Of a stretch of 64,000 bases of DNA, positions 4,148 through 63,118 are shown piece after piece. The translations under genes were made by a program, and so were the position numbers. The notes under the pieces are model-generated. The model made no database searches and was not told the origin of the DNA. It saw only the letters and a list, made by a program, of their open reading frames with translations. The stretch is taken from assembly GCA_032622095.1 (NCBI GenBank), contig CP136061.1, positions 99,011,345 to 99,075,344 of the forward strand, in the 5' to 3' direction. Numbering within the stretch: position 1 is the first letter of the stretch; each line of letters starts with the position of its first letter. Source of the stretch: Siphonodentalium dalli. Taxonomy: Eukaryota > Mollusca > Scaphopoda > Gadilida > Siphonodentaliidae.

Positions 4148-6298
4148 CTATGATATGCTATGCTTTAATCTCTAAGACATGAGTTCTCATGTAACTGGCG
4201 AGATGTGCAATATTTACAAGGTGCTTAGTGCGAAATATATACATATACATAAAAGAACACAGAAAATGAAGAAGAAGCAGAAAAAGAAGAGGAAAAGAAT
4301 GAGAGGAAAAGAAGAAGAAGATAAGAAAAAGAAGAATAAGATAGAAGAAGATAGAAGAAGATTGGTCGATAGATATGGCGGTATTCTCTCTGTTAACCAT
4401 CGTCAGTCCTCATTATCGTCGTTTTTATATTCATCTAATACGTTCTATCAGGATACTTTTCGAGGATGTCTTATATCAATACTAATATAATACTAACAAC
4501 AACAACAACAACAACAACACCAGCAGCCATAACATTTTGACTTGATATTTCAATAACATTAATAAAATGTATTCAGCTATAAATTTCTATTTCTATATTT
4601 GAACGCTAATTTCAGAAAAAGTGTTAATTTTCTCAAGTCAACGCGACCAGACTTTGTCAGTAGCTCGTAAAACTTTTTCTTAGAAGGTGGGTTCCAATAG
4701 TGTTCGGATATGTATTTTACCCGCAGGTGCCTCAAGTTGGCGCACTTCATAACAAAATGGTATTCATCACCCAGTTCATTTTTGCACAAGCTACATACAT
4801 CTCTTTTTGCTCCTCGCTTTCCCCATCTACTTGTTTCTACTTCCAATCTATGATTGCATGTACGTATTTTTATCAAATATTTTCTCAGACTGAAGGGGAA
4901 ATCGATAATATAGTTTTCTAAGCGGAGAGTTGACTTCAGTTCTTTGTAAAATATTCCTCGTGATGACGATTCTATATCTAACCACCATTGCTGAGTAAAC
5001 TGGTCAATCAAAGTTTTGGTTATGTCTTTTTTCTGGCTGTCTATTAACTGTGCCTGATTCGACCATGCCACGCCGAAACCAGCTGAGTGTATTATTGTTT
5101 TAGTAATGTTAATATGTCTAAAGAGTTTACCGTCGTGTTCCATAAGACGAAACAAGATATCATATAGTTTCTTGGCCAGAACGGACCCATCTCCCGTCAT
5201 GAGTCTCGACCAGTAGCTTACTATTCTCTGCTTTGCCATTATGGCCAATGGGTATCTGCCCAGTTCCCCATACACCATGTAATTCGGAGTGCTGGTCTTC
5301 ATGTGCATCAATATTTTGCAGAATTTTAAATGTACGCTCTCAATTTCTTTCATATTTTCGAACCCCCATATTTCGCAGCCATATAACAAAATTGGAACTA
5401 CAGTCGAGTCGAACAATTTAAGAGCGACCTCGACTGATAAGTCTAGTTTCCCGACTTTACTCAGTAAGCCAAACATGGCTTTACAAGCGGTTTCTTTAAT
5501 CATTTTGATTGCATTATGATATCGCCCGGTATAAAATAGTTTTACTCCCAAATAGGGAAACTCGTCCACAATATCTAATGATTTGTCGCATAATTTGAAT
5601 TATACATCGTCACCACCCTCTCCCTGCTGAAAATCATAACCTTGGTTTTACTAGTGTTCACGTTCAGTTTCCAAGATTCTGCAAAGTCGCTGAAAGCGTC
5701 AAGGGTACGTTGCATACTTACAAAATCTTCAGCGAACAGGACAGTATCATCGGCGTAGAGTAAACATATAAGTTTCAAATAAATGCCTAATTTGTCGTGG
5801 GAAACATTGTTCAACTCGGTCAGGCCATCAACTACACAATCGTGCAGAAAATATTCAAGATCGTTGATATAAATCGAAAAGAGGAAAGGGGAGAGCATAA
5901 TCCCCTGCCGTACTCCCACACTACAGGGGAAAAATTCGGACAGATGTTCATTTTGAGAAACACATGACTTCGTACATTCATACATACTTCTAATTATTCG
6001 GAAAACTTTACCATTTATACCTTGTTTTAAAAGTTTGACCCACAGACCTTGTCGCCAAACTGTGTAGAAGGCTTTCTGGAAATCAACAAATGTGCATACC
6101 AGTTTCTTATTGCTTTTTATGTACAACTCGATAATACTCTGCAATATGAATAATCCGTCTGTAGTTGAATGCCCTTGTCTGAATCCAATTTGATTATCAT
6201 TTATGACACCGTTTTCTTGGGCGAAAGTAGAAAGCCTTTTATTCAATACACTCGTAAATAACTTGCCTATAGCACTCAAGAGTGTGATCCCTCTATAG
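4148..6298 (-). mobile_element. 5'-truncated non-LTR retrotransposon inserted in the satellite
   Basis: The insertion splits or terminates the satellite: GTCCCGGGCGGT precedes it at about 4136 and occurs again at about 6299, which would be a 12 bp target duplication. Because that word is itself the satellite's minirepeat, the duplication is suggestive only. The minus-strand element starts inside the RT domain (5' truncation) and its 3' untranslated part includes a purine tract (4252-4360) and an AAC microsatellite (4494-4519). It belongs to the same LINE lineage as the plus-strand element at 31.7-34.2 kb. Confidence 0.75.
4252..4360 (+). repeat. Polypurine tract and nearby AAC microsatellite
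   Basis: About 105 bases are almost entirely A and G (GAAGAAGAAG and AGAGGAAAAG words), followed at 4494-4519 by a clean run of AAC triplets. Both lie in the 3' part of the minus-strand LINE insertion. Lysine-rich open frames here come from composition and are not genes. Confidence 0.8.
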
Positions 6299-6299
6299 G
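4577..6299 (-). pseudogene. LINE reverse transcriptase and C-terminal zinc-knuckle region
   Basis: Two open blocks lie in different frames. Block 5575-6279 (about 235 codons) holds the RT core: a YRGITLLS start, TGFRxGHS-like GFRQGHSTTDG, FVDFQKAF (motif A), GVRQG and YADDTVLF (catalytic motif). Block 4577-5569 (330 codons) continues with the thumb segment (YLGVKL, LLYGCEIW) and ends in a C-x2-C-x8-H-x4-C cluster (CSLCKNELGDEYHFVMKC). The frame change near 5570 and the missing endonuclease make it non-functional. In an intact element this enzyme performs target-primed reverse transcription. The clade is within the APE-type LINEs; I cannot place it more finely. Confidence 0.88.
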
Positions 6300-7742
6300 T
6301 CCCGGGCGGTAATTAGTCACACCGTATATATCGCTCCAATAATATGTGTGACATATTGTGTCACGACCACAAATGAAATACATGTATATATATATATACA
6401 TGTCCTTTCACTACATTGTGTTATATTATGTATCTATACCCTTGCCATATTTGGTGTAAAAGTATAATAAATTGATTGATTTAGTTATTTCATCTCAACT
6501 TAAGATCACTGAAGATAATAATCGATCATGTGTGTCTTGTTGACAAATTCTGACGTAGAACTTCGTTTCGTGACACACAATGCCTATTTATTAAGTAAAG
6601 TAAACTGTTATGTGATATTATAGTATTGTCATACCAGGCATGTATGCACCTGTATGCGCTTCGTGAATTGTGCTGATTGTGACTGAAAAGTCCAGCGGCA
6701 AGATGATGTTTTTTCAATATCCAATTTCATGCAGTTAGTCAGTTCACGACTGGAATTACTAACAAGAACCGGGTGTTAGACCAGAAAACGGTGTCACAAC
6801 ATCACCCATGGGTTTCGTCGGCATATAATTTGATACTAATCGATAGACATTCCGTGTATTCAAGTTAAGATTAGGTGGAGCATGTATAATCGGGGCGGCT
6901 CGGAGCCTTTTGATACTCGACGACCAGACCATACATCATTCGCTGTGGGAGATTGGTCCTTCCCAGTGGAACCAAAACAAGGGCGATCACCAATAATCAA
7001 GTCCAAGTTTCAGCATCAGCGAATCCGGTTAACTTCTCGTTCGTCCCGCCTGTGATCATGTCCAGTATCAAGCTGTGTAGAACAAGGTTTCGATTCTATT
7101 TCATTAGCCGTCGGGTTATCGTTCTAGTTTAATGGTCGGATGGATTGTCGGGTAGGTATGGACACACGCCGTGTGGCCAGGCTGACGAATACATGAACAA
7201 TGTTAGGCATGAGTTCATGCTTCGTGAAACGCTATCGATTTAAAGCGGTGTCGTAAATTGTATGAAAAATCAAGGATAACATATTGTCGGTTATTAGACC
7301 GGAGTCAATTGTTCGTCGTTTGTCAGGGGTATACTTGGTTCAGTTGGTTTATGGGATTGGTTTCAGTCCCAGGTGTTTCATGCTTTGAAATACGATTCGC
7401 AGGATCAGCGAGGGCTTGTCATAAATATACACACATTCCAACTGGTACGTGTATATATACTTTATTTTCTTATACCGTCTCCAGAATGACTCAAAATCAG
7501 TCGTATTATTGTATGGTAGAAGATGGGCACAATAAAGCACTTTGGTTTTTGAGCGACAGCTTGCATGTATACCCCGAATATCAACATAATTACATGTGGA
7601 GCAACACAGGGAGCCAACAAGGATGTGACTCGATTATGAAAGCAGGTTGGATTCCACCAAACTATATCTAGTTGCTCTAAGTGACGTATATACATTTGTT
7701 AATCATTTTATGACGGGAGCTTCCTGAAATTTGCGAAAACCC
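6300..7742. other. No recognisable gene
   Basis: A 137-codon frame at 7258-7671 (TTG start) and a 57-codon frame at about 6882 show no family motif, and neither has convincing coding character. A short TA-rich palindrome (CATGTATATATATATATACATG) lies at about 6381. No transposon ends were found. Confidence 0.35.
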
Positions 7743-7743
7743 C

Positions 7744-8030
7744 GTGCCAATGCATTCTCTTATATATATATGCGAGTCGACCATAGGTCGCCTCGCATAT
7801 ATAATAGAATGCAATGGGCTAAAAAAATAAATATTATATGTTATAATTGTTAAAGAATGTAAGAAATAATGAAAAAAAAAAAAAAAAATTGTTATAGAAT
7901 GTAAGAAATAATGATAATAATGATAAAAATTGTTAAAGAATGTAAGAAAAATTGATAAAAAAAATAATAACAAAAATTATGAGGCCAATGCCTATGGTCA
8001 GCTCGCACATGTAAGTGAATACATTGGCAC
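7744..8030 (+). mobile_element. Diverged copy of the hairpin-ended element
   Basis: Both termini are versions of the 69 bp hairpin found intact at 47.5-50.9 kb. The left one (7744-7817) keeps GCCAATGCATTCTCTTATAT, GCGAGTCGACCATAGGTCGC and a slightly mutated return arm. The right one (about 7983-8025) is degraded but keeps GGCCAATGC, ATGGTC and ATTGGCAC. Between them are A-rich repeats of TTGTTAAAGAATGTAAGAAA, also seen between the hairpins at 50800-50860. It has no coding capacity. Its divergence shows that the family is older than the identical copies further right. Confidence 0.75.
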
Positions 8031-8463
8031 ATGGTCTTTAATGTTGCGCCAGCGCAGCTCGCGTCATGAAAGTGTTAAAGGCAAAGTCCGGTTATTTTTA
8101 GTTGGCATAAAATGTGCCAAATGTTACAAGTCGAGTGACGTTCACTATACTGTTATCCATCGTAAATTCAGTTGATCAAATAAAAGTCAATAGAATCGTC
8201 ACAAAAGTCGAACAATCTATTCCTTCTCTGCGACTGTTTCCCGTTTCTGCCATTCTTATTTATATAACCAGGTCGTCGTCGTTTTAGAACGTGCTTAGCT
8301 CGGTTGCTAAACGCCGAATTCCGCTGAAGTTGAAGTCATGGTGAAAGTCATTCCAAGTGAAAGTGACTCGATAACATTTGGACAAACTTTATACCACTTG
8401 AAAACAACCGGACTATGCCTTTAAGCTTTTATGGTTGTTTCTGCGTCAGATTTTTCGAACAGA

Positions 8464-12856: not shown

Positions 12857-14095
12857 ACTTTTTTTTTTTTTAATAATTTTTATTGAGATCAAAAATACAT
12901 ACTCATTCAGACTTGTCATACAAAAAATACAGACATTTGGCAAAAATTGAAGAAATTAAAGAGGATTACATTTAGATATTCAGTTTCAATTATTCTCCAC
13001 ATTTCAATGATATAAAAAATAGAAATGAGAACTTCATATAAGTTTGGTTTAGGGAAGCATCTAAACAGGTATAGAGTCTCTACTACGGCTAACCACCCTA
13101 ACAGTGTGACTTGTTGTGAATAGAGAATTTAAAAGTTTCCATCTTTCAACGAAAGTTTTTTCCTTCCTAGTGGAGAAGCGTTTCAATGGTACCTCATCTA
13201 TGTTTTTATAATGCTGTATTGTTTCTATTAAGCCCTTCACTGAAGGTTCACTATTCCTGACTTTACAGGAATATATATACCTTTTATATAGTAAAATATA
13301 AAGATTAATTATATTATCTATTTCAGTCTCAATTATATTGCAACCCAAGGTTACCCATTCTGGTGAAATGTCGAAGTTTATATTACATGTTTCCGCTATT
13401 TTTTCACGTAATGACAATAGTACTGATTTAGAAACTGGGCATTCATAGAAAAAGTGAAGCAGTGTTTCCTTTTGTTCTTGACAGAAGCAGCATAACTCAG
13501 TTTCTGATAATTTGCATTTAAAAAGCTTTGAATTTGTGTATAAGATATCATGATTCATTTTGAATTGGAAAGATAAAAGCCCAGTGTCATTTGTTATTAT
13601 GGCCGTGTTATTGTATATTGATTTCCACTGCTCAGCTGAAAATATTTTCCCAAGGCGGTCTTGCCATTTTTTCTGAGATGTTTGGGGTGACATGATGATT
13701 TCATTCAAGAAAATGGGGTAAAACTCTCTGCAAGCTTTTTCACAGTTTTTTAATTTAATTATATAGTCAGATGTCACACTGTTAAGGTGAATTGATGTCG
13801 ATAAACAGTCTTTCCATGCATTTGGTAAGGCTGTAATCAGGCCTATATAGGTGGTGAGGGGAGTTTGTAATTCATACTTGCTACACAATTCCTCATATTT
13901 CATTATGCCAGAGGTTTCATCATTGATTAAATCATTTAAAAAGTAAATGCCCTTTTCTACCCAAGTCTTATAAAAGACTATTTTTCGGTTTATTCTGATA
14001 TTCTTGTTGTAAAAGAGCGGTTCACTTTGGATATCTTCTGGGGTTGTGGTGATAGATGTAGTTTGCGAATACTTGTTTAATTCAATTACCTACAC
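12857..14095 (-). mobile_element. 5'-truncated LINE nested in the plus-strand LINE
   Basis: A run of T at about 12860-12872 is the poly(A) tail of a minus-strand insertion. Its 5' limit is placed near 14095, where plus-strand LINE-type sequence resumes. It contributes the pseudogene at 13061-13903. An insertion in opposite orientation into an older related LINE explains why the plus-strand RT is split. Confidence 0.75.
13061..13903 (-). pseudogene. C-terminal part of a Tx1/L1-like LINE ORF2
   Basis: This is a 280-codon open frame, the 3' third of an ORF2 protein. Around residues 137-155 it has a C-x2-C-x8-H-x4-C cluster (CCFCQEQKETLLHFFYEC), typical of the zf-RVT region downstream of RT. Near the end, YKRYIYSCKVRNSEPS matches the LINE tails at 26354-26629 and 59359-59565. 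RT and endonuclease are absent (5' truncation), so it can produce no active enzyme. Residues before the zinc cluster (KKWQDRLG, LLSFQFKMNHDILYTN) match the usual layout of this LINE group. Confidence 0.85.
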
Positions 14096-17872: not shown

Positions 17873-20413
17873 ATAGAACAAATAATTTGAAAAAATCAGC
17901 CAAAGATAAATATTTAGCAAGCCTCGATGAAAACTTGAAAGTAAATGAGCCAAAACAATTCTGGCATGTCACTAAACAATTACTTAATAATTTCTCCAAT
18001 GACGAGAAAATTCCCCACTAAACTTCAACAACAGAATTTTTGAGGACGATTATCAGAAAGCACAGGTCTTAAATTCAATTTTCACGAGAAATAGTACACT
18101 AGAAAATGAAAAATCGACATTACCTAAATTTGCAGAAAGAACAACCGAAAAATTAGAAGAGATTAAATCTACTGAGGAGGACATATCAAAAGTTTTGAAC
18201 AATTTACAAACAAATAAAGCCACGGGCCCCGATGGTATAAGTAACAAAATGTTAAGGGAAACACGTGGCTCAGTTTGTAAACCACTTACAATAATTTTCA
18301 ATCTATCTGTAAAGAGCTGTTGTTCCCCTACAGCTTGGAAGAAAGCGATGTGATGCCCCTCTTCAAAAAAGGTGATAAGCATGACCCTTTAAATTATCGT
18401 CCGATATCTCTTATAAGTTGTGTCGGCAAGGTACTAGATAGATTAGTTTTTAATGAAATTCTAAGCCATTTGAAATCCCACAACCTTTTATATAAGCATC
18501 AATATGGATTTATGCCTGGTCATAGTACCGAATTTCAATTAATTGAAATCATTCATAATATCAACTGTGCAATTGACGAGGGCCAAGCGAGTTGTGCAGT
18601 CTTTTTCGACATTTCTAAAGCGTTTGACAAAGTCTGGCACCGAGGTCTTGTTTTAAAATTAGAGAAATATGGTTTGAAAGGTAATATTCTGAAATGGTTG
18701 ATAAACTATCTACAAAATAGACAGCAAAGAGTTAGAGTCAACTCAAGCTTTTCGCAGTATTCCCCAATATCAGCTGGTGTGCCACAGGGATGTGTAGTCG
18801 GGCCTCTGATGTTTTTAATTTACATTAATGACATCGCCGATGAAATTAAATCTAGCACAAGACTTTATGCTGACGACACACGTTTAATCAAAAGTGATAG
18901 TGATACTTATAACCTTCAATCGACAGTCAATAGTGACATGAACAAAATCAGAGATTGGGCTGAAAATTGGTGTGTCCAATTTAATAGTAGTAAAACCAAT
19001 CTAATGTTCTTTTCCAAGCCAAGTGTAGTTAAACCTACAATCATATTCGATGGGGTAACACTAGAATAATCAAATAGCCACAAACACATAGGATTGGATA
19101 TTGATGACAACCTAAGTTGGAACACACACATTGGTAATATATGCACTACGGCATACGCACGTTTGTCACAATTGCGTAAACTAAGAACAATGCTAAATCG
19201 CGAAACACTTCAAACCCTCTATTTATCTCATGTTCGATCCATTGTGGAATACGCTAGTAACGTTTGGTCAGGTGCACCTGAATACTTACTAAAAGATCTA
19301 GAAGATGTTCAATATGAAGCGGCTAGAATAGTCACCGGTTGCACCAGGTCAGTTTCAAATATTAGACTTCTGACCGAACTTGGCTGGGAGACGATTGAAA
19401 CTCGAAGATATTACAAACAGGTTTTAACTTTCCACAATATAGTAAACAAAAAAACACCTAACTATCTGACAGAACTTATACCACCCAAATTCAGTGCCCG
19501 AAATGACCATGATACCAGAAATGCATCAAACTTTATCCCTATGAAATGCAACTACAAAAGAAAATAGTCCACTTCCATGCCCAAGTGTATACATGACTGG
19601 AATAAACGCTATAACAAAATAAGAAATCTGAATTATGAATGTTTCCGACAATCACTAATTCCCAATCCGGTTAAATCCCCCAAGTATTTTTCTACAGGGA
19701 AACGATAATTAAATATCTTACAATGTCGACTCAGGTGCGAATGCAGTGAACTCCAATCATATAAATACTTCAATTATATTGCGATGTCCAAAGCCTGTAG
19801 ATGCAGCGATAGTGTAGAAAACGAATTTCATTATTTTCCCAATGTCAATTGCATATTATTCCAAGAGTAGACCTGCTGAACAAGCTACTACGTTTCAATA
19901 TTTATTCAGTAAAAACATTACTATTTGGAGATCCAAGCTTATCAAATTCCAATAATGAAGACATTTGCAAGGCTGTCCAAATCTTTATAAGAGACACATC
20001 CCAGGATGAGAACATACCGTCCTAATTTCAACTTAAATGACTACAATTGAAAAAGAAATCAAACAAAAATAATACTTCTGAGTATAAGACAACAGTCATA
20101 AACCCCTATTGGAACATACTCACTGTCCTGCCACCTTACCATTGGTAAGGACGGATGAGCACAGAACAGCTTAAAGCAACATATACTTTTGAACTATATA
20201 AATTCGAAGTTGGGAGAGACTAGCAACAATCAACCTTTACCATTTAACGTTAATGCCATATATAATTGTTCAATGCCATGTTCATTTTTTATTTCACTTG
20301 AGTGTATGGTGATCGTGAGAGAAGTAGCATATAAGTGGCCCGCACTTGTTCTTCAATCCCATTGCCGACTGTGTGCATTTATATGCATATATGGCGAATA
20401 AATATGTTTAAAC
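17873..20413 (+). mobile_element. CR1/jockey-type LINE inserted into the foldback arm
   Basis: The left arm breaks at about 17872 and resumes at about 20414 (AACCAATCGGTGTCCC), while the right arm is continuous across the matching point near 21600. The inserted 2.5 kb is therefore a later event. It lacks the endonuclease, so it is 5'-truncated. No clear poly(A) or simple-repeat tail is visible at its 3' end. Confidence 0.85.
18026..19720 (+). pseudogene. CR1/jockey-type LINE reverse transcriptase
   Basis: The first frame (about 18020-18352) includes ATGPDGI, the usual lead-in to RT, and is frameshifted near 18350. The next (18320-19069) holds LNYRPISLIS, GFMPGHS, FFDISKAFDKVWH (motif A), GVPQGCVVGP and RLYADDT (catalytic motif). 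A TAA at 19067-19069 interrupts the frame in phase; 19070-19567 then continues with HKHIGLDID, LYLSHVRSIVEYAS and CTRSVSNIRLL. A further in-phase TAG at 19565 precedes more matching sequence. Later frames near 19730-19870 keep a degraded Cys/His tail. Two in-phase stops and one frameshift make it inactive, though well preserved. Confidence 0.9.
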
Positions 20414-31692: not shown

Positions 31693-34193
31693 AGGTCAGT
31701 AATTGACTACGCGTTGGATAATAAGCACTTATTCCGCGCTATTGAAAACTTTCGCGTTGGGCAATTCTCAAACCTATTAAGTGATGTACATAACCCGTTA
31801 GAAACCACAATTCGCTTTTGGACCAATCCTGAACCCGAAGATGCAGATAATGATATCATGGATGAGTTAATTCCTCCATATAGAATTCGACGTTGGTACC
31901 ATGCAAAGGGTATGGGTTTAATAAATAAATATCAATGTACATGAACTTGATATGGTTCGAAGCAAAATTGAATCTTTAAATAACATGACTATGATCCGTC
32001 GGATAGCTCTTATTTAAATAATCCTATATCGGAGGAGGAAATTAAGACTGCCATATTGAGGCTTAAAAATGGAAAGTCAAGTGGTTATGACCAGCTATGT
32101 AATGAATATTTCAAATCGACTTTAGATATGTTTATGCCAGTTTTATTATTTAATTTGATTCTGAACTGTGGTATTTTCCCACAAGGGTGGGCGATAGGTA
32201 TGATAAAACCTATCGATAAAAAATATGGGGACCATGAAAGCCAGATTCATACCGTGGTATAACATTGCTAAGCTGTTTCTCGAAGATATTCACATCAATA
32301 CTTAATAGCAGACTAGTAGCCTTTTCCGAAGAATTCGAGATAATCTTGAAAACACAAACCGGATTTAGAAAAGGACACTCCGCGATAGATAACATATTCA
32401 TATTACAGAGTATCATAGATCTCTATTTATCAAGTAGCAAGAAACTTTATTCTATCTTTATAGACTTTAGAAAAGCATTTTATACGATTTGGAGGGACGC
32501 ATTGTTGCTAAAAATGATGAATTATGATATTGATGGTAAAGTCCTAAATATTATAAAGGATATGTATGGCAAAATTAAAATTTGTGTCAGAGACAACAAC
32601 TCTATGTCTGACTTTTTTGTAAGTAATATTGGCATATTTCAAGGTGAAATAATGTCACCTTTCTTATTTTCTCTCTATGTAAATGATTTACAATTTTTTT
32701 TGTATGATTGTGCAATAGACCCTCTGAAATTTCTAGATGAATCATATATGCAAAATGTTGGCTGCTTTATTAAATTGTTATGTCTTTTATATGCCGACGA
32801 TACAGTTCTATTTTCTGACGACGAAGATAATATGCATAGGGCCCTCCTCACCTTTGCCGATTATGCAGAAGCTTGGAAACTTCAAGTCAATACAAAAAAG
32901 ACCAAATTAATGATTTTCACGAAGTGGTCAAAAAATCTTCCCACATTCATGTATAGAGGCTGTGTTCTAGAACTAGTTAAAGAATTCACTTATTTAGGGG
33001 TTAAATTATTGTATAATGGTCGCTTCTGCCAGAACATAAAGAAAACAGTTAATTCTGCAACGAGAGCCATGTGCGGACTTCTTAATAAGGTCCGAAAACT
33101 AAACTTACCCATTGATATTATGCTTGATTTATTCGATAAGATGATTATACCTATTTTACTGTATGGAAGTGAGATATGGTGTTTTGAACGTATTCAAAGT
33201 GTAGAGACACTACATCTAAAATGTTGTAAGATGGTTGCGTCCATCAAAATGAGTACCCCCAATTACATACTTTATGCAGAATTCGCACGACACCCCGTCT
33301 CTTATAAATAACATGCCGAGCTCTGACATATTGGTCAAAGCTCGTATCGAGTGACGGCTCTGAGCTAGCTAAGAATATATATACCTTAATTTATCAGACT
33401 CATGAGATGAACTCACAGACAGCAGACAAAAATAACTCCAAATGGTTATGTTTTGTCAAAAATGATCTTTATGATTTGAAATTGCAATCAAAGTGGATCA
33501 CCCAGACGGGCCTGACCGCTATTGAACCGAGAAATGCAAAAACTGTTCTCAAACAACGTCATTGGGACGCACTACTCGTTGACATAAACACATCTGCTTC
33601 ATCGAGGGCCCGATTTTATAGTTTTATTAAAACTGATTACGGTTACCCAAATTACTTGAAGGTCTAATCTATCGATATACGTCTTGAAGCTCATAACTGC
33701 AAATCATAAACTGCCTTATAGAGTGTGCAAGATGGAAGAAATCTCAGAATGATAATGACAATAGGATATGCACCATATGTGGAAAATATTTAGGAGACGA
33801 ATACCATTTAGTTAGTATATGCAGTCATTTGGATGAAATCAGAAAACAATATATCCCTGAGTACTTTTGGAAGAACCCTACGAGAGTGAAATTCCATGGT
33901 CTCCTATCTCTTCAAAATATAAGCCTCATAGAAAGACTATGCATATTCCTAAGGTGTGCCTTTAAGAAGATGTCTTATACTATATAATCGAAATCATTTA
34001 TGGTTATGGGTGAACACATGTAATTATCATACTTGTTAAGTTTATCACCTATTATTGTGTAATCTAATTTAATTACTGCTGTGTATATGAAATGAACAAT
34101 GATTAATGTGATATTCAAAGTTGTGTACATAGTGTATATACGTTTTACTTGTTTGACTGTTATGCAACTTGTGCAATAAATCAATCAATCAAT
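31693..34193 (+). mobile_element. 5'-truncated LINE inside the right CXC copy
   Basis: Comparison with the uninterrupted left copy fixes the junctions: host sequence ends CTGGATCCAGAT (31692) and resumes GAAACTGCTTGCTGAAGAC (34194). The element ends in GCAATAAATCAATCAATCAAT, a short TCAA-repeat tail instead of poly(A). A few host bases (GGGG in the left copy) are missing at the junction and no target duplication is visible. Confidence 0.88.
31700..33990 (+). pseudogene. APE-type LINE: endonuclease end, RT and zinc knuckle
   Basis: The first block (to 31944) ends an apurinic-type endonuclease: SVIDYALDN, then LLSDVHNPL, the SDHxP-like signature. Then NGKSSGYDQLCNEYF (32056-32262) leads into RT at 32265-33311: TGFRKGHSAIDN, FIDFRKAFYTIW (motif A), GEIMSPFLFSLYVND, YADDTVLFSDD (catalytic motif), FTYLGVKLLYNGRF, LLYGSEIW. 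After frame breaks, 33407-33667 and about 33766-33990 continue to C-x2-C-x8-H-x4-C (CTICGKYLGDEYHLVSIC). The order and motifs match the minus-strand LINE at 4.6-6.3 kb; this copy extends further 5'. Several frame breaks make it dead. Confidence 0.9.
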
Positions 34194-46407: not shown

Positions 46408-47494
46408 AGCTACAACAATTATATGGTAGATAGTTCACGGCCGACCTGATGCATGCATCTTAGTTTTCTTGTATATATTTGTTGTACATATCGGTCGCTG
46501 TTGCCGGGAAAATTGGTCGAAATTCTCGGACAGGGACGTATTGATGTTGCATTGTGACAGGGGTGGTTGCGTACAGGGGCGGCGGACAAATATATCCTTT
46601 ATCGAAAACCGGCAGTCATGTAGGGAGTGTTTCGGGGAAGGGAGCTAGCCCCGGTGGCAGCAGAATATAATTAGGTTGTATACCACCAATAAAGCTTCAG
46701 ACAGAGTAAATAGTTTATGATGAATCTGACATATTATTTAAAGTTACTCACTGACGTCACCAGTGTCACGGCCAGGTCCCAACGATTTAGTGGATAGTAT
46801 ATAACACATTGAGCATGTTAAGCCTATAGTGTCGCATATTCGTTTAAATATTGCATAAATTGATATGCAGATGTAGATTGTCGGCACACCATTGAGTTTC
46901 ATTTGCGCACATGCAGATGACCATATTGCATACATTGTATGATCGCGGTACCTAAACGGTTGTGACACCTATCGGTTGTATATCACCCCGGGCAAGTGGC
47001 CCTGTTAATGCGCTATGATGATGGTGGGTTTTGCTGAATTGCTATCATGTTAGTAGTATATATATGGCCGCACTGGGGCAGCGTGCAAAAAATCTCAATG
47101 ATTTCGAGAATGCATCAATACAACGTCAGTTACATACTTTATGCTGTATATACGATATACAGAAGACAGAAACAGTTGGACGTGGGAGAGGGCTGGCCCA
47201 CTGAAATTAATAAAAAAGGTCCTGGTTTTGACGCAAATTTCCACCAGTCGTTTTGGAATTTCATGATATTCTATGTTAGCAATATATTATGGTATATTTC
47301 AAATTTGTCAACGAGGCGCCGTCCTGAGTCACCAAAAGGGGCGAGGTGGTATGTCGCAAATTTCATCCCAATCGTAGATATATCAGAGAAATTGACGCAT
47401 GCACGGACTCAGTTCATGAGTGTTCATAGCTTCAAATGCGATTGCTTCAGTGAGCGTGAATAAGTTCTCATTTTTATCCAAATGCATATTTTTA
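46408..47494. other. No gene; fragments of known repeats
   Basis: Bases 46790-46950 repeat the 35290-35460 block. A 138-codon frame at 47047-47463 overlaps a diverged 280 bp-repeat unit (GGGAGAGGGCTGGCCCAC, TTCCACCAGTCG), which explains its openness better than a gene would. Confidence 0.45.
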
Positions 47495-47745
47495 CCCTGT
47501 GCCAATGCATTCTCTTATATATGCGAGTCGACCATAGGTCGCCTCGCATATATAAGAGAATGCATTGGCCTAACAATTTTTTATCATGTTTTTTAAATAA
47601 ATGTTTCTTACAATTTTTAGGACATAAAATACAAAAATATCCATTACCCTGCAGGGAGCCCCACACATATATAAGCATATAGAAGAGTGTCGTCTGCTCA
47701 TGTTTGTCTGGGGCTCTGTATGGGTGAAATTATAAAATTGTTAAA
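47495..47745 (+). mobile_element. One-ended copy of the hairpin element
   Basis: A perfect 69 bp hairpin (47501-47569) is followed by TAACAATTTTTTATCATG and the interior sequence with GGACATAAAATACAAAAATA, CTGCAGGGAGCCCCACAC and GTCTGGGGCTCTGTATGGGT. The interior is the reverse complement of that in the 48875-49342 element. A second hairpin is missing, so this copy is truncated on the right. Confidence 0.8.
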
Positions 47746-47867
47746 GAAGATCGATCGGAGTAGCACTTTGAGATGTCCGTCAACTCATATCAAACTTGGA
47801 AATCGGTCCCAAATTTTCGCACATGTTATGGTTCTAACCCGATGCATTACAACCTCATCCGCATAGC

Positions 47868-48184
47868 AGGGGCATCGGTGGCTCAATCGGTTAGGGGTAC
47901 CACTCCAAGCCGTTTCGCCCTCCAGCACTGGCGATAAGGGTTCAAATCCACATGTTTCCATCGTGGACTTTGTAACTCGAAATCGTTATCTGGTGGAGTT
48001 GCCAGTTACTCGCCGATGGTCGGTGGTTTGCCGCACATGGTTGACGAGTTTATCAGCCATTGAAATCACTGTTAGATTAGTTGCAAGTGTGCGGATTTCC
48101 TCCACCACTAAAACTGGCAATGTCGTGATATGGCCTTAGTGGCTAAAGCGACAATAAACCCCAATCAATCAATCAATCAATCAA
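47868..48184 (+). mobile_element. tRNA-derived SINE with perfect 13 bp target duplication
   Basis: The head carries an A box (TGGCTCAATCGGTTAGG) and a B box (GGTTCAAATCC, about 35 bases apart), the internal RNA polymerase III promoter of a tRNA-like 5' part. The body includes GGAGTTGCCAGTTACTCGCC and GGCCTTAGTGGCTAAAGCG, and the tail is GACAATAAACCCCAATCAA followed by TCAA repeats. Flanks are identical: TCATCCGCATAGC at 47855-47867 and 48185-48197. It has no protein. A perfect duplication and clear boxes suggest recent insertion. Movement would need an enzyme from a partner LINE. Confidence 0.92.
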
Positions 48185-48197
48185 TCATCCGCATAGC

Positions 48198-48874
48198 CCA
48201 GACGATGGTCACATATAACCTGAATCTAACCACCTCGGCTATATGGGGACCAAATGTGATAATAAAGTTGTCTAGTTGGTGTTATCATAGGGGCCAGATA
48301 TAGGATACACATACACAAGAGCTGCACATCAAAATTGATATGAGCAATAATTCTGTAGAAATAGAGGATCTATAACTCGTCCCCAGTTTATAGCCGAATT
48401 ACCAAAACGAGTCCAGTATGGAGGAGTTTTGTAAAATCCGCTATAAACTGGGGACGCGTTGTAGATTATATCTATTACATGATCCAAAACTTCGACAAAA
48501 CATACTTAAATCAACACATGGGACGCGAAACTAACATCGGCTTTTATAAGACATGCGATGACGTTTCACGAAACTATGCGTTGCTTGCCCGCGTAAATAA
48601 ATAGTCCCAGATAAATAAAGACTTTTTTGGTTATTTAATGGCGTATGTTTGATGACAACTTTTCAAACTGTTCATTCGTTATAGTTTGTTGGAGAAATGT
48701 TGGAAGCCATCGTATTTGACGACGTAGTGTACGGAATGTAAACAGATGACAAACCGCAAGTCAAAGGTCACTGGCTACGGGTACTAAATGTGTAAATAAA
48801 AGTTGTATAGTTGGTGTCATTGCATGATGGGTCATAGATAGGACATACACGTAGAGGAGGGGACATCAACATTT
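48198..48874. other. No gene seen
   Basis: It contains a short inverted pair (ACTCGTCCCCAGTTTATAGC at 48374 with GCTATAAACTGGGGACGCGT at 48441), perhaps a small hairpin element. No frame has motifs. Confidence 0.4.
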
Positions 48875-49342
48875 ATATGTGACCCGCCATATCAAATCCA
48901 GTCGTAAGTCGGGATTTTTTTTACCCTGTGCCAATGCATTCTCTTATATATGCGAGTCGACCATAGGTCGCCTCGCATATATAAGAGAATGCATTGGCCT
49001 AACAATGTTTTACAATTTTAATAATTTGTTCTTGTATTCTTTAACAATTTTATAATTTCACCCATACAGAGCCCCAGACAAACATGAGCAGACGAGACTC
49101 TTCTATATGCTTCTATATGTGTGTGGGGCTCCCTGCAGGGTAATGGGTGTTTTTTTTATTTTATGTCCTAAAAATTGTAAGAAACATTTATTTAAAAAAC
49201 ATGATAAAAAATTGTTAGGCCAATGCATTCTCTTATATATGCGAGGCGACCTATGGTCGACTCGCATATATAAGAGAATGCATTGGCACAGGGTAAAAAA
49301 AATCCCGACTTACGACTGGATTTGATATGGCGGGTCACATAT
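48875..49342. mobile_element. MITE with long inverted ends that contain 69 bp hairpins
   Basis: The inverted ends start TATGTGACCCGCCATATCAA, run through TCCAGTCGTAAGTCGGGAT and TTTACCCTGT, and include the complete 69 bp hairpin (48930-48998 and 49219-49287), so each terminal repeat is about 125 bp. Flanking TA on both sides would fit a TA target. The centre (about 49005-49210) is unique and non-coding, with GCCCCAGACAAACATGAGCA and TGTGTGGGGCTCCCTGC. Confidence 0.85.
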
Positions 49343-49344
49343 GA

Positions 49345-49575
49345 GCAGTAATAGCATAATATGGTGTATTTTGGCACAGCTGCATGTTATGTTTGTCTTC
49401 GAGATATGCCGAGCGTTGCCCTGTGCACATCCATGGGATTATATAACACACACGGCGCTGCATGTGTTTTGATACAATGCACATTGTTTTGATTGGGCGG
49501 GATTCGAACCCCGGCCGTGATGGCGAGCGCGCCTTGTTATTCACAAGTCCGACCAATCTCCATTTAGTTGCGTCC
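49345..49575 (-). mobile_element. tRNA-like SINE head, minus strand
   Basis: On the minus strand, GCGCGCTCGCCATCACGGCC followed by GGGGTTCGAATCCCGCCC is a B-box region closely matching tRNA T-arm sequence. The 5' half does not fold as a complete tRNA, so it is a SINE or a tRNA pseudogene. Downstream about 150 bp of unique body (CATGCAGCGCC, GGGCAACGCTCGGCATATC) follow. Ends are not defined. Confidence 0.55.
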
Positions 49576-50697
49576 CTTTGCTGTGCTTCGCGCTCTGAAA
49601 AGGAACGCGTACATTATTTAGTTGGAAATTTCACTTCAACAAAAGGTTGAAAATGTTCTTGTAGTTTGATTTTCAAACAATTTATTGAGTGAAATTTAAT
49701 GATTTTGGACCAATATTTGGATATTTTCCTTCTTTTTATCCAAATTTCGGACTGAAATGGGCATCAGTTGGAAATTGTCCAACCTTATATGGGGTGTCAT
49801 GTTGGAAATTTCCAACACTTGGAAAGATTGTGTCCTGATCCCTTCCTCGTGGTCAGTCAAAAACTGCTATTTAATTTAAAGAGATAGACGCAACTCGCAA
49901 AATCCACACCTTTTTGTTCTAAATCAGTCATTTATACCCTCAAAACGATCGCAAAATAATGACCTACGCAAAGCGCGAATTGAAATTTCCAGTATGACGT
50001 CGCTCAGAAAGCGCCCCTGAAACGAAAACGGCGTCACAGTGAATCCGGCCAATTCTAGTGCGTGATGTCACTTGGGGACACTGGCGAATACGTCTTCTCT
50101 TCTCTACACAATTTGGTGCTGTTATTTGCGGGTTTTAATCGATTTGTGTGGAGATTGTTTTGATCATCAAACTCAGTTGGCAATCACCATGCATATGACG
50201 AACAAATATGTTGTCACTGGGAGCAGCCACACAAAGAATGGCCTATTGTATTTCATCAATTTCCCTGAATTACCTGACAAATAATACGCTGCCTGAGAAC
50301 TATAATGTCGTATATCCATTTTGGCGGGAAAATGAGATATTGGAATCGTTGGAATCGCCGCGAAATTTTCTTTCGTTTGATACCTATGAACCGTGCATTC
50401 GCCCCACAGTCACCCTGATAAATGCTGTGCAAATGTGTTGTATGTCCATGTGTGCAAAATTTCTCCGTGCTATAATGTCGTATCTCCTTGACCAATTGCA
50501 TCACCAAAGATCGTCACGTGGAAAAACTTTGACGAATGGCGGATTCTGATATTTGGAAGAAATGGTATCACAAGAAAATAACATTGTTTTCATTATATTC
50601 TCACACTTGTTAATTGCTGGTTTGCTATGTTGTCTCCGCAAATGTTTAGTCAACTAAATATGCTTGTGTAAACGCATGTTATGAGATATGTAGCATC
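49576..50697. other. No gene; short palindromic GTTGGAAATTT motifs
   Basis: Copies of AGTTGGAAATTTCAC, CAGTTGGAAATTGTCCAAC and TGTTGGAAATTTCCAAC lie at 49619-49820; the same word family occurs at 63651-63715. Frames at 50072-50549 lack motifs and sit in AT-rich sequence. Confidence 0.45.
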
Positions 50698-51096
50698 TTA
50701 ACCCTTTACCCAACAGAACGGCCCTGTGCCAATGCATTCTCTTATATATGCGAGTCGACCATAGGTCGCCTCGCATATATAAGAGAATGCATTGGCTTAA
50801 CACATTAAAAATGATAAAATTGTCAAAGAATGTAGAAAAATATTATAAAAATGTTAAAAAAGATTTTTTTTTAGGCCAATGCATTCTCTTATATATGCGA
50901 GGCGACCTATGGTCGACTCGCATATATAAGAGAATGCATTGGCACAGTGCATAACTGTAACCATCACAATGTGGTCAATGAACCGGTTCCAATGATATCC
51001 ATATTTATATGGTGTTATTGAGACAGACCGAAGATATTTTAGGCTGTTGAAGCTTTATTTGGGCGTTTTTGGCCGCTTTGTTGGGTAAAGGGTTAA
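50698..51096. mobile_element. TTAA-flanked MITE with piggyBac-like ends
   Basis: It starts TTAACCCTTTACCCAACAGA-ACGGCC and ends GGCCGCTTTGTTGGGTAAAG-GGTTAA: 25 bp inverted ends with one interior mismatch, and TTAA on both sides. CCCTTT ends and TTAA targets fit piggyBac-type elements. The hairpin-ended element (50724-50947) is inserted near its left end, so removing that leaves a 175 bp MITE. No gene. Confidence 0.8.
50724..50947. mobile_element. Compact hairpin-ended element, nested in the TTAA MITE
   Basis: Two 69 bp hairpins (50728-50796 and 50875-50943) in inverted order enclose a 78-base A-rich core with TGTCAAAGAATGTAGAAAAA. The whole unit is about 220 bp. The core resembles the spacer of the 7744-8030 copy. 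No protein coding. It is the smallest complete form of the family here. Confidence 0.88.
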
Positions 51097-60885: not shown

Positions 60886-61120
60886 AACAGGTAAGAATGT
60901 CTTTGAAGAAGCCGCAAGGACATTCTAAATATCATAATCATCATCATAATACATTATATCAGAGCGCGAGATATCAAACCTTCTTCCAAACACCTTCCAA
61001 ATATATGACTATAGATAGATTTGCACCTAATTACCAAAAGCTAAATAGTTATTCAAATAAACCAGTCACCGGTCGAAACCTAATACATCCTATCATGCTG
61101 ATACAAGCATTAACAAACAC

Positions 61121-61735
61121 GTGCATTCCCCAATAATGAATAGAAATCCCGCTGATCAGGTTAGAAAAGATATGAATAAACGATTACATAAGACTGTTCC
61201 CAAACAAAAGGACATTAATAACGATGCAAAAACTAAAAATCGAAACCAACGACAAGCTAATCGAATTACAACGGTTTACCAAAATAATAATAATGAGCCA
61301 GGTAAAAACGGTCAAAGTATAAATAACCATTCTGAACAGATGCAATTGCATACATTACCTAAACTAAATTACCATGCAGAAATCGCACAGCGACTGCAAC
61401 AGCAAACGCCTTGTTCAAAAATTATTAAAATTTGTAACCAACGCATAAGGGCATTACTTGACTCTGGTGCAAGCACAAGTTGTTTAAAATGCGACGTATA
61501 TCGCTCCCTTCCAAATAAGCCACTGTTATTAAAAGAAAAGATAATTCTGACCTCGGCAACAGGCCAAAACATGCAAGTATACGGCAGTATACATTTGCCT
61601 TTCAAAATTGGGTCAACGTCATTAGTACATAAATTCTTTAAATTACCCAACCTAGCACGATCAGCCATTTTTGGTCGCGATTTTTTCACAGACAAACATG
61701 TAAGACTCTATTTCGATTTGAATGCATTTAGATAG
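61121..61735 (+). pseudogene. Gypsy gag-pol fragment with retropepsin
   Basis: 204 codons. The first 85 residues are Asn/Gln/Lys-rich and unassigned. Around residue 111 lies LLDSGAST, the aspartic-protease active site, and near residue 182 the AIFGRDFF motif, which matches the second retropepsin signature (I-x-G-x-D-F). The enzyme would process the polyprotein in an intact element. The preceding 60753-61136 frame overlaps the satellite at its start, so only its later part can belong to the element. It stops at 61735; the next pol part is in another frame. Confidence 0.8.
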
Positions 61736-61739
61736 GCAA

Positions 61740-62264
61740 CAAAATATTTACCATGTTGCAGGATTTGCATATAGCGTCATTGCTACGTTCGCGGCAAGAT
61801 ATTAAATTACCACCCCATTCATGTGCATTGGTAAACACAAAACAAATCGGCACACCAGACATGTTTGACACACCATATCTTGGAGTAATTTAGGCCGATA
61901 TCGGCATATTTAAGAACTAATGGATTGGGTAGTTTCCGCGTCAAAACAAGATATACCGATCATGAATAATTCAGATTCATATATGTCTATACTCAAGGGG
62001 AATATAATTGCAAAAACACATGGCCTAAGTTCAGATCAGGTCTGTCAAACAAAGGCTAAGGTACCCACCACAAATAAAATGAATGATTCTCAAGAAGTAT
62101 TCAGTATAGAAAATCAAACAAAGTGTAACCTGGTCATAAACCGTTCAAATTGGACGATATATGTGCCCCCGACCACCACAAAATGGAACTACTTGAGTTG
62201 GTCTCCCAATATGAATATGTTTTTACAAACGATCCAAATAAGGTGGGATATTCCGATAAAATAG
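61740..62264 (+). pseudogene. Gypsy linker between protease and RT
   Basis: Frames are broken by stops (for example at 61888-61890). NNSDSYMSILKGNIIAKTHG (from about 61960) matches the usual segment before RT in gypsy pol. No catalytic motif is expected here. Confidence 0.55.
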
Positions 62265-63118
62265 TCATGCGTGTTGACACCAAACCAGATGCAGAACCTA
62301 TCTTTTGTCGTGCGTATCCTACTCCCTTACATAGACGCGAACACATGGAAAAAGCACTTAAAAAATTATTTGAGGTTGGTATTATAAAGAAAACTACAAA
62401 TGCAAAGTGGTCATTTCCAGCAATTCTGATCAAAAAAGTCACAATAGATTCTAATGGAAATCAAAATTATAGACTATGTATAGACCTGAGAAGGCTGAAT
62501 AAAATCACCGTCCCTTTACGATGGTACCTCCCCTCTTTTACTGAAGTTTTCAGCCGCCTCCAAAAATCCAAAGTTTTTTCTACAATCGACATTAGCCAAG
62601 CTTATCATGTTATCGTTGTTCTCAAAGAACATCAAGAAAAGTTAACTATGAACACTGATTCCGGATTGTTTTATTTCATAAGGGCCCCATTCGGCTATTG
62701 CAACTCGAGCGCAACATTTTTTACATTAATCCATAAACCATTTGAAGGGTTAAACTTTGTTGATAGCTTCGTCGACGATTTAATTTGTCACAGCGAAACG
62801 GAGGTCCTCCATAAACAGCACCTCAAAATAGTATTCGAGCGACTCAGAGAGTATGGATTAGTAGCACGATTAACAAAGTCCCAATTTTATATAAAAGAAG
62901 TAATATTTTTAGGGCATATCGTATCACAAACTGGCACGCGCCCAGATCCCGCCAAAGTTAAAGCCATACAAGATGTGCCGGCCCCAACATCAGTTAAAGA
63001 AGTCCATAGAGTATTAGGGATTTTCTTTTTTATCGGAATTGTTGTAAAGATTTATCGGACACTGCCGAGAATGATCCTCTATTGCGATGCATCGATGCAT
63101 TCAGTGGGGGATCATTAG
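62150..63118 (+). pseudogene. Gypsy reverse transcriptase with deleted connection region
   Basis: 322 codons. Residues 40-100 carry YPTPLHRREHMEKALKKL, VGIIKKTTNAKWSFPAILI and RLCIDLRRLN; motif A FSTIDISQAYH lies near residue 145; RAPFGYCNSSATF follows; the catalytic motif is FVDDL near residue 208 (Y replaced by F, seen in some gypsy RTs). FLGHIVSQTG and a VLGIFFFIG block follow. Then the frame jumps to MILYCDASMHS, the start of RNase H. The 70-90 residues that normally link RT to RNase H are missing, so an internal deletion occurred near 63050. Confidence 0.88.

Follow-up and report, generated by a model that had tools for sequence, protein, structure and literature searches.

Why should a 69-bp sequence that folds on itself almost end to end occur five times, without a single difference, within 3.4 kb of a scaphopod genome? 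The window analysed here is a 64,000-nucleotide stretch of the Siphonodentalium dalli genome (GCA_032622095.1, contig CP136061.1, positions 99,011,345 to 99,075,344 of the forward strand), and a first-pass annotation made from the letters alone described five identical hairpins in it, the third and fifth inverted relative to the other three. Comparison of the copies confirms their identity, positions and orientations (Table 1), and the near end-to-end fold is also as described: the single strand forms 32 pairs around an ATA loop, interrupted once by a T/C mismatch. The folding energy is -35.4 kcal/mol as DNA (z = -15.6), and none of 200 shuffles folds as well. Five copies in this span form a local cluster, 0.23 being expected from the genome density, because three insertions neighbour one another. 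The flanks were said to differ between loci, which is not simply so, as every copy is bordered by CTGT on the outside and YTAA on the inside; the outer motif is CCCTGT in four of the five and CACTGT in the fifth.

The window hairpins lie within non-autonomous cut-and-paste transposons (MITEs). Three elements from two families, A and B, account for all five, and each full copy contains a pair of hairpins in inverted orientation, set just inward of its ends (copies 2 and 3 form the pair of one element, copies 4 and 5 that of another), in the order tip, outer arm, CCCTGT, hairpin, AT-rich linker, inverted hairpin, ACAGGG, outer arm and tip. The full A copy has inverted arms of 145 nt and shows 98.0% identity to a 457-bp majority sequence drawn from 11 full A copies; the B copy, with hairpins 26 and 149 bases from its two tips, shows 94.75% to the corresponding 400-bp sequence from 19 B copies. 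A sixth, diverged hairpin pair lies elsewhere in the window, in a relative of a further family, F. A scan of 10 of the 40 ORFs listed for the window found no transposase.

Table 1. Hairpin-bearing elements in the window and their parts
Feature	Coordinates	Strand	Remarks
Older relative of family F, diverged hairpin pair	7699..8078	+	Expanded ATTGTTAAAGAATGTAAGAAA linker; hairpins 7746 to about 7817 and about 7984-8030; 84% to F positions 1-127, 83% to F positions 176-263
Family A fragment	47486..47748	+	One hairpin and most of linker, other end lost; 97.7% to A positions 36-299
Hairpin in A fragment	47501..47569	+	
Target duplication ATAT (4 bp), left of A copy	48875..48878	.	
Family A MITE, full length, 460 bp	48879..49338	-	Ends GTGACCCGCCATATC...
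Hairpin of full A copy	48930..48998	+	
Second, inverted hairpin of full A copy	49219..49287	-	
Target duplication ATAT (4 bp), right of A copy	49339..49342	.	
Family B MITE	50698..51096	+	Includes TTAA target duplications 50698-50701 and 51093-51096; ends CCCTTTACCCAAC
Left hairpin of B copy	50728..50796	+	
Right, inverted hairpin of B copy	50875..50943	-	

Four families were recognised. Family A has GTGACCC tips and 4-bp AWWT duplications (457 bp in the majority sequence), and family B has TTAA duplications and piggyBac-like CCCTTTACCC ends (400 bp including TTAA). The older family F combines TTAA with CCCTTCCATGAC and a variant of the hairpin pair (about 263 bp, in a sequence made by eye), and family C, with TTAA and CCCTTTGAGTGCC, was seen with one hairpin at three loci (L001, L009 and L012, the last two with a right flank in common). 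The tips of A, B and F differ, and all three families carry the hairpin pair or its variant; all three are short, of high copy number and bounded by terminal inverted repeats, as expected of MITEs, with target-site duplications in A and B. Of 20 B loci fetched with a pattern that included the left TTAA, 19 have the right tip, and TTAA comes after it in 19/19; with a pattern lacking TTAA, it is present on the left in 18/19 chimera loci with a B tip. Identical 4-bp duplications (ATAT, AAAT or ATTT) flank 8 of the 10 A loci in which both ends were found (20 fetched), or 6/8 once two insertions present twice are merged, and also the window copy. TTAA occurs at both ends of the three C loci, and in F on the left in 13/20 loci; of 12 F loci whose tip could be recognised, 8 have it on the right.

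The TTAA of B, C and F is that of the piggyBac superfamily, whose tips follow the rule CCCTTT; B and C resemble piggyBac-type MITEs in TTAA duplications and CCCTTT tips, and F in TTAA and CCCTT. Unlike those MITEs, several families here have a 69-bp hairpin pair in common, and family A lacks TTAA, its duplications ATAT, AAAT and ATTT not being those of the superfamily. Tc1/mariner MITEs have a TA target duplication at the element ends, which is not the arrangement found here, and a Made1-like assignment does not fit. Helitron and Helentron elements likewise have a short hairpin near an end and an AT-rich interior. Helitrons are not known to make target duplications, and the elements here differ in having them, together with terminal inverted repeats.

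The whole-genome count proposed by the first-pass annotation gives 87,638 exact matches to the 69-mer in the 2.23-Gb genome (43,886 + and 43,752 -) and 148,740 with up to three mismatches (74,528 + and 74,212 -), so that 59% of the latter are exact; the reversed pattern yields no match in the whole genome at either setting. Exact tips number 43,631 for B and 18,051 for A, and F outer arms 27,039 (up to two mismatches). The recent amplification that had been suggested is supported, by way of transposition, by the target duplications and the high share of exact copies. Places without hairpins are few. B tips close to a B right arm and lacking the pair occur at 7 places vs the 43,631 exact B tips; stubs of CCCTGT or ACAGGG remain at six of these, and a scrap of the loop at the other. 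Of the three such A places, one keeps stubs, another a scrap of linker, and the third has neither; the A-type place at C5:82037799 may represent an ancestral, hairpin-free state. Since hairpin-less places are rare and nearly all retain remnants, the hairpin is integral to these elements.

The claim that the hairpin is better conserved than its context stands between families and subfamilies, and is less clear for single inserted copies, where the proposed comparison of hairpin and flank depends on the flank. Private substitutions in 38 B copies are about as frequent in the hairpin (50/5048, 0.99%) as in the right arm (43/5501, 0.78%; p = 0.25), and the AT-rich linker has more of them (49/2843; p = 0.006); in A the hairpin again falls below the linker in private changes (26/3036 vs 85/4749; p = 0.0006), and the right outer arm varies no more than the hairpins (1.43% vs 1.19% and 1.45%). 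Variants common to at least three of the 38 B copies are absent from all 138 hairpin columns, whereas 22 are present elsewhere, 8 in 79 linker columns and 14 in 149 right-arm columns (p = 4e-5). Because there are no shared hairpin variants despite equal private changes in hairpin and right arm, the hairpin in the B source copies has remained fixed; the same test in A is weak (0/138 hairpin columns vs 6/218; p = 0.09). Inserted hairpins accumulate changes, and no hairpin variant marks the sampled B or A subfamilies. The A and B majority sequences are identical at 69/69 hairpin positions vs 46/53 in a homologous linker stretch (p = 9e-5). In hairpin copies with one to three changes 55 of 69 altered pairs are broken, so pairing is not kept up after insertion. 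The F hairpin has two compensated inner-stem changes plus scattered ones, with five pairs changed on both sides vs 2.3 in shuffles (15 of 500 reach five) and a covariation score reached by 1/500 shuffles.

Families A and B have also traded arms and interiors across the hairpin, each receiving parts of the other, and some of the products have multiplied. We found 277 chimera-type places joining A and B parts across the hairpin (35 fetched): 57, on all nine contigs, have A outer parts and a B interior (20 fetched; four breakpoint types), and 220 have B outer parts and an A interior (15 fetched), with B tips at 17/17 matches in the fetched loci. The search patterns fixed one joint at the hairpin, and therefore a preference of joints for the hairpin is not demonstrable from them; most fetched chimeras have their second joint away from it, within the outer arms. 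Of the gene conversion proposed by the first-pass annotation, exchange between families is seen; conversion in place is weak, because the chimera types searched for are rare and private changes in B hairpins persist.

We infer, with about even confidence, that the subterminal palindrome is needed for mobilisation and also bridges exchange between families. As double-stranded DNA the hairpin would be a long subterminal palindrome serving as a cis-acting site for efficient mobilisation, held in the simplest form by a piggyBac-type transposase dimer via its cysteine-rich domains, and sources would arise only from copies with an intact palindrome. Common to the families and capable of forming a cruciform, it could also bridge repair and template switching between them. 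PMC11707139 describes piggyBac and piggyBat transposases binding subterminal palindromes through CRD dimers, and the palindromes there are, as here, subterminal and asymmetrically placed. Those are 14-19 bp, however, and one of 69 bp is far longer; exchange alone could keep source hairpins alike without function; family C was seen with one hairpin; and the A right outer arm is as uniform as the hairpins. The weakest step concerns family A, which lacks TTAA and would therefore require another enzyme at the same site.

It is quite possible, if short of probable, that the hairpin has no function and is ordinary MITE sequence kept uniform by exchange among more than 100,000 copies (concerted evolution through recombination or template switching). 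Exchange between A and B is directly seen in both directions, and homologous exchange would often join at the hairpin with CCCTGT, since this is the longest identical stretch found common to the two families. However, the chimera types searched for are rare (57 and 220 places vs the exact tips of B and A), B hairpins retain private changes as often as the right arm does, B right arms, likewise abundant together, have diversified, and F hairpins have changed with compensation. A bolder version of the mobilisation reading makes the hairpin pair an end-independent mobility module, working with the ends of different transposases (TTAA and AWWT systems), such that MITEs swap tips around a conserved hairpin and so change transposase; this we put forward tentatively, as doubtful.

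An unlikely alternative is a transposon within a transposon, in which the hairpin pair and linker form a mobile element with its own ends, CCCTGT...ACAGGG. The module is present in different outer arms, TA stands on both sides of it in A, ATA precedes CCCTGT in L010 and L087, and TTAA directly abuts CCCTGT or ACAGGG in L085 (left) and L086 (right). Yet in B the module lacks flanking target duplications (GG | CCCTGT ... ACAGGG | CA), L085 has no TTAA on the right, L088 has AAA, and there is one possible hairpin-free A place and no clear hairpin-free B place. The D-type copies were rejected as proof of a stand-alone transposon, TTAA occurring there only on one side each of L085 and L086.

Retention of the hairpin for small RNAs from a transcript (miRNA- or siRNA-like), as in human Made1, is very improbable. 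The near-perfect hairpin does resemble the Made1 palindromes behind hsa-mir-548 (PMC1784062), and pairing in F is preserved by compensated changes, but the loop has only three bases and the invariance spans both arms and the mismatch; the small-RNA precursor suggested initially found no evidence, Rfam 15 giving no match to RNA families in the window at the gathering threshold. Finally, assembly duplication is scarcely credible for the bulk of the copies, because most of the 135 fetched loci differ in flanks (and target duplications) and the 57 chimera places are spread over all nine contigs, although a few copies are duplicated or tandem (insertions twice with the same flanks in L041/L046, L042/L045, L009/L012 and L010/L081; regular spacings of about 14,558 and 11,175 bp at C1:0.73-0.93 Mb).

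Among known systems, the mariner-related MITE Made1 has a near-perfect palindrome of similar size, which according to PMC1784062 makes up the entire 80-bp element (37-bp TIRs on either side of a 6-bp middle), whereas every full element here has two internal palindromes and TTAA or 4-bp AWWT duplications. The foldback-like Galileo, a P-superfamily element, resembles family A in its long inverted arms, and according to PMC4168063 it has defective copies and exchange, as here, for which gap repair, template switching and ectopic recombination are invoked; unlike it, the elements here have their own complete hairpin in each arm and measure about 400-460 bp. We recognised no description of the hairpin element in the open-licence literature on MITE hairpins, palindromes, gene conversion, Made1 and tip swapping. 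It offers a countable case of MITE families with differing tips and target sites, one fixed hairpin, and arms and interiors exchanged across it, and it separates the decay of dead copies from constraint on source copies, which are usually mixed. It thereby makes it possible to test by what routes non-coding elements attain very high copy numbers and how they might switch transposase.

Direct comparison of the five 69-bp hairpins in the window revealed no difference among copies, with orientations as the first-pass annotation had described, and each folds end to end with a single T/C mismatch and an ATA loop. Copies 2 and 3 form the hairpin pair of one inverted-repeat element with 145-nt arms, and copies 4 and 5 that of a second. 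The whole-genome count that the annotation had proposed, run on the nine-contig assembly containing the window (2,226,750,531 bases), yields 148,740 matches with up to three mismatches on both strands, or 0.46% of the genome from the hairpin alone, including 87,638 exact matches (both strands summed); the reversed pattern gives none at either stringency. The exact/near ratio corresponds to ~0.5 changes per copy, assuming Poisson changes. The B tip (exact 21-mer) has 43,631 occurrences, the A tip (exact 26-mer; a full element has two tips) 18,051, and the outer arm of F, counted as a 28-mer allowing two mismatches, 27,039.

The hairpin-bearing elements are MITEs, of which the hairpin pair is a regular part. 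The first 20 loci were selected on an exact hairpin; hairpin-free patterns then retrieved 20 B loci (all at contig C1:1.1-6.2 Mb), 20 A loci and 20 F loci (both C1), and a further 20 were retrieved via an internal sequence unit, D. Family B reads TTAA-CCCTTTACCCAACAGAAsGGCCCTGT-hairpin-TTAACACATT...TTTTTTTTAG-inverted hairpin-ACAGGGCATAACTG...TGTTGGGTAAAGGG-TTAA, and family A reads GTGACCCGCCATATCAAATCCAGTCGkAAGTCGGGATTTTTTTACCCTGT-hairpin-CTAACAATTTTTT...-inverted hairpin-ACAGGGTAAAAAAAATCCCGAC...GGCGGGTCAC. Family F, read by eye, is TTAACCCTTCCATGACTGGAGCTTCCTGAAATTTTGCGAAAACCCTGT-hairpin variant-CTAACAATATTTACCTTGACCTTGTAAG...-variant-ACAGGATCTTTAATGC...TCATGAAAGGGTTAA, and family C (L001, L009, L012) is TTAACCCTTTGAGTGCC...GGCACTCAAAGGGTTAA carrying one hairpin together with a portion of A-type linker. 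Of the 20 B loci fetched by a pattern that included the left TTAA, 19 have the right tip, and TTAA follows it in all 19; a left TTAA is present in 18/19 A/B chimera loci with a B tip, for which TTAA was absent from the search pattern. Of the 20 A loci fetched, ten had both ends identified, and eight of these are flanked by identical 4-bp duplications; counting only once the two insertions that occur twice leaves duplications in 6/8 independent ones. One locus (L026) has one hairpin only and another (L035) a hairpin with a collapsed centre. Window elements were assigned by comparison with family majority sequences (see table). The F-like elements in the window and at L064 have A/B-type hairpins and a linker expanded to tandem ATTGTTAAAGAATGTAAGAAA repeats.

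Features of the window, with similarity to the family majority sequence where available
Feature	Position	Strand	Remark
Reverse-transcriptase-related retroelement fragment	5575-6312	-	RVT_1
Older F-like element	7699-8078		diverged hairpin pair
Reverse-transcriptase-related retroelement fragment	13061-14089	-	zf-RVT
Reverse-transcriptase-related retroelement fragment	18281-19069	+	RVT_1
Reverse-transcriptase-related retroelement fragment	32238-33311	+	RVT_1
Family A fragment	47486-47748		97.7% to A
SINE-like stretch	about 47870-48190		tRNA-like promoter words, AATC-repeat tail; judged by eye
Imperfect inverted repeat	48368-48466		both arms 48 nt, 81%; possibly another small transposon
Family A element	48879-49338		98.0% to A
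ATAT duplications of family A element	48875-48878, 49339-49342		
Family B element	50698-51096		94.75% to B; TTAA at both edges
Retroelement	61061-63118	+	retroviral-type aspartyl protease, then reverse transcriptase

Across 19 B copies, the two hairpins have overall substitution levels of 1.13% and 1.46%, compared with 4.26% for the linker and 2.47% for the right arm; across 11 A copies the hairpin values are 1.19% and 1.45%, with the linker at 2.51% and the left and right outer arms at 3.79% and 1.43%. We separated private changes (in one or two copies) from shared ones (in three or more), the latter taken as marks of different source copies. For B we used 38 copies from 40 loci (L028 and L119 have no recognised right end), 19 of them from the chimera set. 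There are no shared variants in 138 hairpin columns, as against 8 in 79 linker and 14 in 149 right-arm columns (p = 4e-5), these 22 variants sitting at 20 columns. Among 22 A copies from 35 loci (13 lacked a recognised complete core), shared variants number 0 in the hairpin and 6 in the linker (p = 0.09), and private changes 26/3036 and 85/4749, respectively (p = 0.0006). At the source level the hairpin is invariant in these samples; the majority sequence of the A hairpin agrees with that of the B hairpin at all 69 bases, and a homologous linker stretch matches at 46/53. The earlier proposal that the hairpin is better conserved than its context holds for B in shared variants, and in private substitutions relative to the AT-rich linker (49/2843, p = 0.006), but not relative to the right arm, where private substitutions are equivalent (50/5048 in hairpins, 43/5501 in the arm, p = 0.25).

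Individual hairpins decay once inserted, as 55 of the 69 altered pairs in 57 copies with 1–3 changes are broken, 13 are wobble and one is compensated. The F hairpin departs mainly in the inner stem, CGACC/GGTCG becoming CTCCC/GGGAG with both changes compensated. In 17 rows, comprising the window copy and 16 diverged hairpins (from 194 gap-free alignments; gapped ones excluded), five pairs are altered on both sides compared to 2.3 in shuffles (15/500 reach five), and the covariation score is matched by 1/500 shuffles; both results have few independent events behind them, and the structure was derived from one of the sequences. The T/C mismatch and first two loop bases are invariant in 17/17 rows.

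A and B have exchanged sequences across the hairpin in both directions and more than once, as both chimera patterns are matched and joints are of several types, and several products have multiplied. An A outer arm, any 69 bases and the B left linker occur together at 57 places representing all nine contigs. In 16 of the 20 fetched, the B tip TTAACCCTTTACCCAACAG, or a version differing by one base, continues into A's TCGGGATTTTTTTTACCCTGT; two (L110, L113) join the B tip to a longer A piece, one (L111) has the joint AAG|GGATT, and one (L109) shows an A arm that lacks the B tip. The converse arrangement, GGCCCTGT followed by 69 bases and the A linker, occurs at 220 places. B tips are present in all 17 matches of 15 fetched loci. 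In 13 of the loci the A linker extends to the second hairpin, of which L130 keeps a remnant; the others are truncated (L126) or cut or broken (L121). A shortened B right arm lies behind the second hairpin in ten; in L129 both ends carry a B left tip, and L133 terminates in an A tip. The patterns imposed one joint at the hairpin, so these counts cannot show that joints favour it; in most of the fetched chimeras, the other joint falls within the outer arms. In Galileo, altered copies are attributed to gap repair, template switching and ectopic recombination, a known route to chimeras of this kind (PMC4168063). In another combination, L089 (225-293) links a C-type outer arm (TTGTATCAACCCATATACCCTGT) via the hairpin to a D-type linker.

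We infer that the palindrome may be a site for mobilisation of these MITEs. The closest known parallel is piggyBac, in which a dimer of the transposase grips, via cysteine-rich domains, subterminal palindromes located at asymmetric distances from the tips (PMC11707139). In B, 26 and 149 bases separate the hairpins from the tips. Against this reading, the palindromes described for piggyBac are shorter and family A lacks TTAA. The chief rival to a mobilisation site is concerted evolution through exchange alone. A small-RNA role is improbable, the one pointer to it being a resemblance to Made1 (PMC1784062), and Rfam gave no match in the window. There is precedent for MITEs, palindromic MITEs, TTAA MITEs and recombinant elements; no description of a fixed hairpin pair common to families that differ in tips and target sites turned up among the open-licence papers searched.

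Elements without the pair were sought with exact anchors and gaps up to 28–30 bases, such that other places may be missed. Seven B places include six with CCCTGT or ACAGGG stubs and one with a loop scrap; three A places have stubs, a linker scrap, or neither, the last of which might be an ancestral form. Stubs such as CCCTGTGCCAATGCATTGGCACAGGG would be the remnant expected from cruciform collapse. Hairpin modules with TTAA directly abutting CCCTGT on the left (L085, 232-600) or ACAGGG on the right (L086, 518-592) are perhaps a stand-alone element.

The D unit (ACCCTTATGGAGCCCCTCACAGAC...GGGGCTCCCTACAGG) is repeated in tandem over short arrays with 107- or 122-bp spacing at C6:1.080-1.081 Mb (L100), L096 and C7:0.796 Mb, and many lie near contig ends among the 100 of 478 matches listed; the middle of the A linker seems to hold a relative. 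At C1:0.73-0.93 Mb of G000, exact hairpins are evenly spaced at about 14,558 and then 11,175 bp, which suggests a tandem array of large units, and a B copy is present at all three places fetched there (L004, L005, L007).
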